From positions 1-64,000 of the forward strand of contig JAHHIH010000016.1 in the NCBI GenBank assembly GCA_019358835.1: a DNA stretch of 64,000 nt. The letters run 5' to 3'. The translations under genes and the position numbers were made by a program. The number at the start of each line of letters is the position of its first letter. The first letter of the stretch is position 1. Below are positions 32,083-32,951 of the stretch, one piece after another. The stretch is from Tildeniella torsiva UHER 1998/13D (GTDB lineage Bacteria; Cyanobacteriota; Cyanobacteriia; Phormidesmidales; Phormidesmidaceae). The notes below the pieces were generated by a model. The model saw only the letters and a program-made list of their open reading frames with translations, did no database searches and was not told the DNA's origin.

Positions 32083-32400
32083 CTAGGCGGCGGCGGGTAG
32101 CTCATCGACCATTTCAAAGGCGCGATCGAGCTGGGTGAGCTCAAACACAATGCGAATGGCCGGGGGCACAGAGCAAAGGCAGAGCCGCTTTTGCAGCTGA
32201 CGAGCGTGCTTGAGCGCCGACACCAGGGAGATCAGCCCGGCGCTGTCGAGGGACTCGACCTGGCTCATGTCTACGAACAGGCCGTTGGCCTGGTCAGACT
32301 GAATTTCTTGTACCAAAGACGAGTGGAAATCGTGGGCATTAGAGGCGTTGAGCGAGCCCTGGGCTTGAAAAATAGCCATTTCCTTAGTCATAGTCTGCAT
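32083..32400 (-). CDS. STAS-domain anti-sigma factor antagonist-like protein
   Basis: 105-aa single STAS domain. The phosphorylation-site region is VESLDSAGLISLVSALKHAR (Ser in DSAG at about residues 54-57), as in SpoIIAA and RsbV. Such proteins are switched by phosphorylation from a kinase/anti-sigma partner; no partner is adjacent. ATG at 32400, with an in-frame ATG three codons later possible. The upstream 317-bp region has a CRP-like box and a long palindrome, listed separately. Confidence 0.88.
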   Translation of the reverse strand: MQTMTKEMAIFQAQGSLNASNAHDFHSSLVQEIQSDQANGLFVDMSQVESLDSAGLISLVSALKHARQLQKRLCLCSVPPAIRIVFELTQLDRAFEMVDELPAAA

Positions 32401-32597
32401 ACTCGGTACACTCCAATAATTATGGATAATGTTAAGAACTATTAAAGCCAGTTTGCTACATCCCGAAGGTAATCGGAATTACGTCATTTTGGATATGTCT
32501 AGGGGCAGAGTTGGTCGTATCTTGATATAGATTCAGACCTGGTTCATTTAACGCTTCCGTGAATCTACCGAACATATCCCCAACACTTGAATCATTT

Positions 32598-32613
32598 TGT
32601 GATTTGGATCACG
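32598..32613. promoter_or_regulatory. CRP-like binding site (TGTGA-N6-TCAC)
   Basis: The sequence TGTGATTTGGATCACG matches the CRP half-site consensus TGTGA and TCACA on 9 of 10 informative bases, with six spacer bases. Cyanobacterial SyCRP1-type regulators use this consensus. It lies 105-120 bp upstream of the 77-aa gene's ATG and about 200 bp from the STAS gene start. A possible -10 TAGAGT for the plus strand is at 32625-32630. Binding is inferred. Confidence 0.5.
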
Positions 32614-32644
32614 AATTACTGTGGTAGAGTTCACACCTTTTTCG

Positions 32645-32678
32645 GGGTGTCATCACGCCCTAGGGCGTGATGACACCC
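32645..32678. repeat. Perfect 34-bp palindrome
   Basis: GGGTGTCATCACGCCC (32645-32660) and its exact complement (32663-32678) flank a TA centre, so the 34 bases read identically on both strands (central CCCTAGGG). There is no T tract after it on either strand, so an operator or attenuator is more likely than a terminator. It lies 39 bp upstream of the ATG at 32718. Confidence 0.85.
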
Positions 32679-32717
32679 GACAATGGCAGTAGTCAAAGCA
32701 CGTTCAGGTAATGGTTC

Positions 32718-32951
32718 ATGGCCCCCACATTTTCCATTCGTCGACTGGTAGAAAAAGCACTCCACAGCGGACTGCTAACCCCTGATATTGAACAGGGCAT
32801 CAATGCTGAACTGTCTCGCCTCGGGTATTTGCCCATTGGTGACTCCGAAGCCTTGGAACTCCTTATGTACGAGATGGACGAAGGGCGCATCCGACTGGTT
32901 CCAAGTGGGCTATCCTACGGCGGTTCGCTACAGCAGACGGTATTGGGCTAG
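32718..32951 (+). CDS. Small conserved-type cyanobacterial protein of unknown function
   Basis: 77-aa acidic protein starting MAPTFSIRRLVEKALHSG, with IEQGINAELSRLGYLPIGDSEALELL (split here) forming two helices and MDEGRIRLVPSG at the end. No domain is recognised. I believe close relatives exist in other cyanobacteria, which is why I keep it. ATG at 32718 is in-frame; an out-of-frame ATG is at 32711. Its promoter region contains a CRP-like box and a perfect palindrome, so it may be tightly regulated. Confidence 0.7.
   Translation: MAPTFSIRRLVEKALHSGLLTPDIEQGINAELSRLGYLPIGDSEALELLMYEMDEGRIRLVPSGLSYGGSLQQTVLG

Follow-up and report, generated by a model that had tools for sequence, protein, structure and literature searches.

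Phased CRP-type sites in the putative promoter of a CdgR-related small protein of Tildeniella torsiva

The intergenic region upstream of the gene encoding a 77-aa protein (hereafter P77) in Tildeniella torsiva UHER 1998/13D most probably (we estimate about 70%) represents the promoter of this gene, activated in the class-II manner by a protein of the CRP family through three phased sites and carrying a palindrome that is private to this lineage and recent. The window, by which we mean the whole stretch of 64,000 nucleotides analysed, is part of contig C47 of the 5.84-Mb genome (G000:C47). The original prediction had described a CRP-like box and, 31 bp after it, a flawless 34-bp palindrome, both located between a STAS regulator and the 77-aa gene; box, gap, palindrome and flanking genes are all found as described. 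The site is more interesting than first noted, though less so for its palindrome than for its other half. The features of the region are, in positions of the window:

32083-32400, minus strand: STAS-domain protein of the anti-sigma-factor-antagonist type, divergent neighbour of P77
32518-32579, no strand assigned: second conserved non-coding block of the genus alignment, with the inverted repeat AGATTCA...TGAATCT
32598-32613, plus strand: rung 1, full CRP-type site TGTGATTTGGATCACG, predicted centre about -85.5
32620-32635, plus strand: rung 2, degenerate site TGTGGTAGAGTTCACA, predicted centre about -63.5, with a 22-bp step from the rung-1 TCAC to its own
32642-32657, plus strand: rung 3, with the conserved right half TCAC (32653-32656) inside the palindrome's left arm, predicted centre about -41.5
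32645-32678, no strand assigned: perfect 34-bp palindrome, seen in this genome only, its right arm (32662-32678) in the spacer between rung 3 and the -10 hexamer
32679-32684, plus strand: putative -10 hexamer GACAAT, lying exactly 22 bp downstream of rung 3
32718-32951, plus strand: P77, 77-aa protein, a stand-alone relative of the CdgR N-terminal helical domain without a ComFB domain

CRP-type sites in phase with a putative -10 hexamer

The box at rung 1 agrees with TGTGAN6TCACA at nine of the ten fixed letters and is therefore classed as a CRP-type site. It had been taken for the only one, but the region holds three in phase, with TCAC rungs starting at 32609, 32631 and 32653. In the genus alignment, which comprises the DNA upstream of P77 orthologues from 22 genomes including the window (the named genomes with orthologous loci being Nodosilinea and close kin), the rung-1 box is present at all 22 loci, rung 2 appears as GTGG-N6-TCACA or a GCACA variant at most of them, and TCAC stands at rung 3, about 22 bp beyond rung 2, in 22/22. 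A named-locus set was formed from the best 80 of 383 loci found, where a full site lies at most 220 bp upstream of P77 in 80/80, a raw count which, like the other locus counts given here, overstates independence, since the loci share descent. The box is an exact GTGAN6TCAC at 68 of these best 80 and differs at one of its eight core letters at the remaining 12; among the 68 exact-box loci, TCAC recurs at +22 or +23 from the TCAC of the box in 40 and at +44 to +46 in 27. Counted by exact rungs, 19 loci have three, 33 have two and 28 have one, i.e. two to three rungs are seen at 52 of the best 80, compared to 0.8% in shuffles (two rungs in 0.8% and three in 0 of 4000 shuffled downstream sequences). 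The number of rungs varies by lineage, while the spacing from rung to rung and from the last rung to the -10 hexamer is kept; the close kin L091 and L099, for example, have one rung and GAGAAT at 22. Variants of the box itself were also observed: in Tychonema/Microcoleus-type loci (L103, L105, L112, L116, L119) it reads GTAA, and in Laspinema and kin (L107, L109, L110, L113, L120) GCGATCG, which we take to be HIP1-like, rung 2 being kept in both groups.

The last rung ends at 32656 and GACAAT begins at 32679, which is the class-II spacing of about 22 bp before a -10 element. The hexamer is found at 20 of the 22 genus loci; it is devoid of the usual T at position 1, and a sigma-70-type promoter scan of 32400-32760 found none. 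Among the best 80 named loci, a hexamer of the class [GT]ANNNT follows the last rung after 22 bp in 39 and after 23 bp in 10 (49/80 together), against a chance expectation of about 3.5 loci at each gap. With the start placed about 7 nt after the hexamer, transcription would begin near 32691, rather than near 32637 as had been predicted, and the site centres of -85.5, -63.5 and -41.5 follow from this position. TAGAGT (32625-32630) was also considered as a -10 element and was dropped, those bases being the variable centre of rung 2.

Read in this way, three CRP-type sites would follow each other head to tail in 22-bp steps on one face of the DNA, the distal one as a full palindromic site and the two proximal ones as degenerate sites with a conserved downstream half TCAC. 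Since rung 3 ends 22 bp before GACAAT, a protein bound there would be centred near -41.5 and could contact RNA polymerase, and cooperative loading probably starts from the full site at the distal end. In the available part of the study of Xu and Su (2009; PMC2633013), known cyanobacterial CRP sites are described as being followed at about 22 bp by a -10 element TAN3T; the P77 promoters share this spacing, as well as the site sequence TGTGAN6TCACA, with class-II CRP-dependent promoters and the SyCRP1 regulon of Synechocystis. Unlike that regulon, they possess one to three sites in a 22-23-bp register, usually with one full palindromic site, and a single target gene, P77, is kept across many cyanobacteria. 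We found no published description of a tandem or phased CRP architecture in cyanobacteria, which is weak evidence of its absence from print.

The layout of one to three rungs recurs not only at P77 of many cyanobacteria, but also at two or more other putative promoters of the same genome. The box pattern alone yields 20 matches per strand compared to 10 for a reversed control, i.e. only twofold; the three-rung pattern gives 8 matches compared to 2 for the reversed pattern. In six of these eight, that of the window among them, [GT]ANNNT stands at precisely +22; this hexamer class had been fixed on the named P77 loci before the genome-wide matches were scored. The other two are C-rich tracts. 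A full box is present in three matches (the window, C34:18639 and C4:57790), and judging by these patterns, two or more further putative promoters of this kind exist in the genome besides that of P77. The ladder at C34:18639 lies upstream of a 36-aa ORF, and its full box, two rungs and TACNAT at +22 are kept in 17/17 loci examined (25 fetched, own genome included), with a third rung at +44 in some loci and at +45 in others. This microprotein ORF (MANPCSKPLKNNPFTTQRDPHTGEWQVVKTHPRSRR, L264:1646-1756, G000:C34) is present in 22 of the 23 loci read, own genome included. The gene downstream of C4:57790 reads, by eye, like a malate/lactate dehydrogenase; in the 15 distinct promoters examined (16 loci, two of them of one genome; 25 fetched) the rungs lie at -44 and -22 in 12, at -45 and -22 in one, and a single rung is left in two, TAGCAT at +22 is kept in just 7, and in 13 ATGA replaces GTGA at the start of the box. 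At L232, L233 and L237 (G000:C4, C5 and C34) three-rung patterns were also noted that lack a full box but are followed in each case by [GT]ANNNT at +22.

Candidate regulator and target gene

A Crp HTH model matched eight loci in the genome, six of them above the cut-off. Among these six CRP-family proteins the recognition helix reads RETVTR in one only, L135; in four it reads RVTVTR, and in one it is degenerate. L135 matches Pfam PF00027, PF13545 and PF00325 and thus combines a cyclic-nucleotide domain with a Crp HTH of the RExxxR type; its score against the NCBIfam CRP equivalog (73.3 bits, cut-off 266) is too low for CRP proper, and it is therefore filed as CRP-like. By eye, it has V and N at what we take to be the positions of T127 and S128 of E. 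coli CRP. The RETVTR helix was read in 29 of 30 loci of L135 orthologues, own locus included, the remaining one not being parsed. P77 itself was matched in 44 of the 57 genomes searched, and an L135 orthologue of at least 65% identity is present in 42 of these 44 (the exceptions being G007 and G043) compared to 6 of the 13 genomes without P77, a co-occurrence with a Fisher p of 1.9e-4 that ignores phylogeny and genome size. Outside the family, orthologues of at least 73% are found in 14/15 genomes with P77 vs 1/8 without. These data make L135 a candidate regulator of the ladder. A paralogue of L135 (L139, G000:C36:212200-212838), likewise of the CRP family and with a degenerate recognition helix, is situated about 17 kb from cdgR, and a distance of 16-18 kb between the two is also seen in several relatives.

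Another CRP-family protein could bind the ladder instead, be it the NtcA-like protein, one of its relatives with the RVTVTR helix or a DevH orthologue; we regard this as rather unlikely, albeit with a real chance of being correct. The NtcA site is GTAN8TAC, and the GTAA left half seen in some Oscillatoriales favours NtcA-like binding there, while the invariant GTGA and TCAC halves fit an RExxxR helix better than they fit an NtcA site. Four members with an RVTVTR helix are at hand in this genome, but RExxxR occurs in L135 only. DevH is a known CRP-family factor of Anabaena, the regulon of which overlaps that of NtcA according to the accessible part of PMC13075795, and L135 could itself be the DevH orthologue.

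The original prediction assigned the region to one or both of the flanking genes, and it is P77 that stands out as the main target, because the box stays before P77 where a STAS homologue is undetected: this is the case in 15/15 loci that have the radical-SAM gene and lack a STAS homologue detected by tblastn, the box being exact in 10 of them and carrying one core mismatch in 5. The gene order radical SAM - STAS - box - P77 - 127-aa gene - ClpS - CPBP is found in many of the best 80 named loci. Six genomes without P77 were searched for STAS, five of which were examined, the sixth (G040) giving weak matches only; the distal box remains beside STAS in three of these five relatives and may for this reason also serve STAS. 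A reading in which the main role of the distal box is to control the divergently transcribed STAS gene, its place before P77 being coincidental, would draw on the same three relatives, yet we consider it improbable: besides the 15 loci already mentioned, the rungs and the -10 hexamer are oriented and spaced towards P77, and none of the three relatives, where P77 is missing, has a -10-like hexamer in register, though one of them retains a TCAC at +44. The conserved non-coding block at 32518-32579, which sits between STAS and the ladder and is kept across the genus, is possibly a STAS promoter or operator.

The 34-bp palindrome

The palindrome (GGGTGTCATCACGCCCT/AGGGCGTGATGACACCC, 17+17 bp, loop-free) is the sole zero-spacer palindrome with arms of at least 10 bp in the window, the next longest arm being 9; in 602 kb of the best 80 named loci there are three of this kind, with a longest arm of 15 and all about 1 kb or more away from P77. 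As single-stranded DNA it folds with -19.5 kcal/mol (z -6.85). The lack of terminator features that had been remarked upon is borne out, since 32400-32760 contains no terminator-like site, and a terminator is rejected because a GC-rich hairpin with a T run is missing. In the 5.84-Mb genome, the 16-base half was matched, at most 2 mismatches being allowed, by the two arms and by two further places, both with 2 mismatches; the palindrome is single-copy, and a dispersed REP- or MITE-type repeat, which would show a many-copy pattern, was rejected as well. At the gathering threshold of Rfam, applied to the whole window, it matches no family.

It is absent from all 21 other aligned genus loci, and near P77 in the best 80 named loci there is no zero-spacer palindrome with arms of at least 10 bp. 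Self-complementarity at this site in 19 relatives does not exceed that of shuffles (p 0.05 to 0.91), and a conserved quasi-palindrome was accordingly not found. The palindrome overlies the third TCAC rung and the spacer up to the -10 hexamer, and despite it the spacer length of 22 bp, rung 3 and the hexamer are intact. Comparison with 17 relatives of equal spacing gave a similarity of 0.64 for the left arm (0.66 among the relatives) and 0.38 for the right arm (0.47 among the relatives), the latter being a modest drop; since the right arm is the less similar one, it is mainly this arm that seems to have been overwritten, so as to match the left one in reverse complement. On these comparisons the palindrome appears as a recent, lineage-private event, and a template switch during replication, rewriting the spacer at constant length, would be its most likely origin, although a switch from an L054-like ancestor leaves three changes in the left arm unexplained. 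In quasipalindrome template-switch mutations, as far as they are described in the accessible parts of PMC7202029 and PMC8794818, one arm is likewise turned into an exact reverse-complement copy of its partner; in the present case the length is kept too and, unlike in those cases, the relatives are without a quasi-palindrome above shuffles.

The notion of a two-input region has to be divided accordingly: the conserved CRP-type site in an intergenic control region is supported, the palindrome as a second input is not. That the palindrome serves, next to the CRP site, as operator of another dimeric regulator of P77 and/or STAS would agree with a repeat that is perfect, hardly due to chance and placed across the core promoter, yet it is very unlikely given that no other copy within 2 mismatches per half exists in the genome except the two weak places, and that the palindrome is absent from the aligned genus loci and from the best 80 named loci, although the surrounding box, rungs and -10 hexamer are kept in the genus alignment. 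Equally little credence is given to the idea that the palindrome forms a cruciform or hairpin in the DNA and, acting in cis, renders this one promoter sensitive to supercoiling: the zero spacer, the 17-bp arms, the strong single-strand fold and the position between activator site and -10 hexamer would suit it, but the palindrome is seen in one genome only, extrusion is conjecture, and a start near 32691 would leave the repeat outside the transcript. Under the class-II promoter reading, which we prefer, the palindrome shows how a core promoter can acquire a perfect inverted repeat and still keep its spacing.

P77 and the CdgR receptor

P77 has no match in Pfam or NCBIfam. A profile of 35 P77 sequences hit PDB 8hja, a c-di-GMP receptor, over residues 2-54 (E 0.0036 for the chain, 0.015 for the stretch), and hhalign of P77 with nine CdgR orthologues gave a probability of 93.7. 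The AlphaFold2 model of P77 consists of three helices (mean pLDDT 79.7), with which Foldseek ranked 8hja (Synechocystis CdgR) first at a probability of 0.99 and E 0.072; VIA-align gave Z 4.1 for the next structure and 8.0 for 8hja, the latter being a middling value below the approximately 13 advised for helical bundles. By profile, profile alignment and predicted fold, P77 thus resembles the N-terminal helical domain of CdgR, the CdgR/ComFB receptor of cyanobacteria, and would belong to the CdgR family in this respect; unlike that receptor, it shows no Pfam match to the c-di-GMP-binding ComFB domain. The genome's own CdgR is a separate full gene, with ComFB at residues 63-142. An identity of P77 with ssr2848, a predicted SyCRP1 target, was considered and dropped, as the available part of PMC4836186 gives 72 aa for it and a match only in Synechocystis PCC 6714.

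In Anabaena, CdgR works partly via DevH, an essential CRP-family factor, as stated in the accessible portions of PMC13075795 and PMC13001216, and P77 might touch the same class of CRP-family factor as CdgR. A more far-reaching idea, which we regard as speculative and unlikely as it stands, is that P77 is a miniature CdgR, which would bind the very CRP-family factor by which its ladder promoter is driven and would compete with or mimic CdgR, so that a three-site cooperative switch and a feedback adaptor would couple CRP-type and c-di-GMP control of cyanobacterial cell size. The link of P77 to CdgR, together with an output of CdgR that runs partly via a CRP-family factor, makes this feedback hypothesis directly testable.

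The available part of PMC2633013 describes cyanobacterial CRP regulons as lineage-specific and without a clearly common target set, and reports that no set of genes shared by most of the 12 genomes studied could be identified. The box kept at P77 across many cyanobacteria is a candidate for such a common CRP target, and the phased ladder offers a searchable signature of the regulon. If P77 truly acted as a miniature CdgR, CRP-type and c-di-GMP control of cell size would be joined across cyanobacteria.
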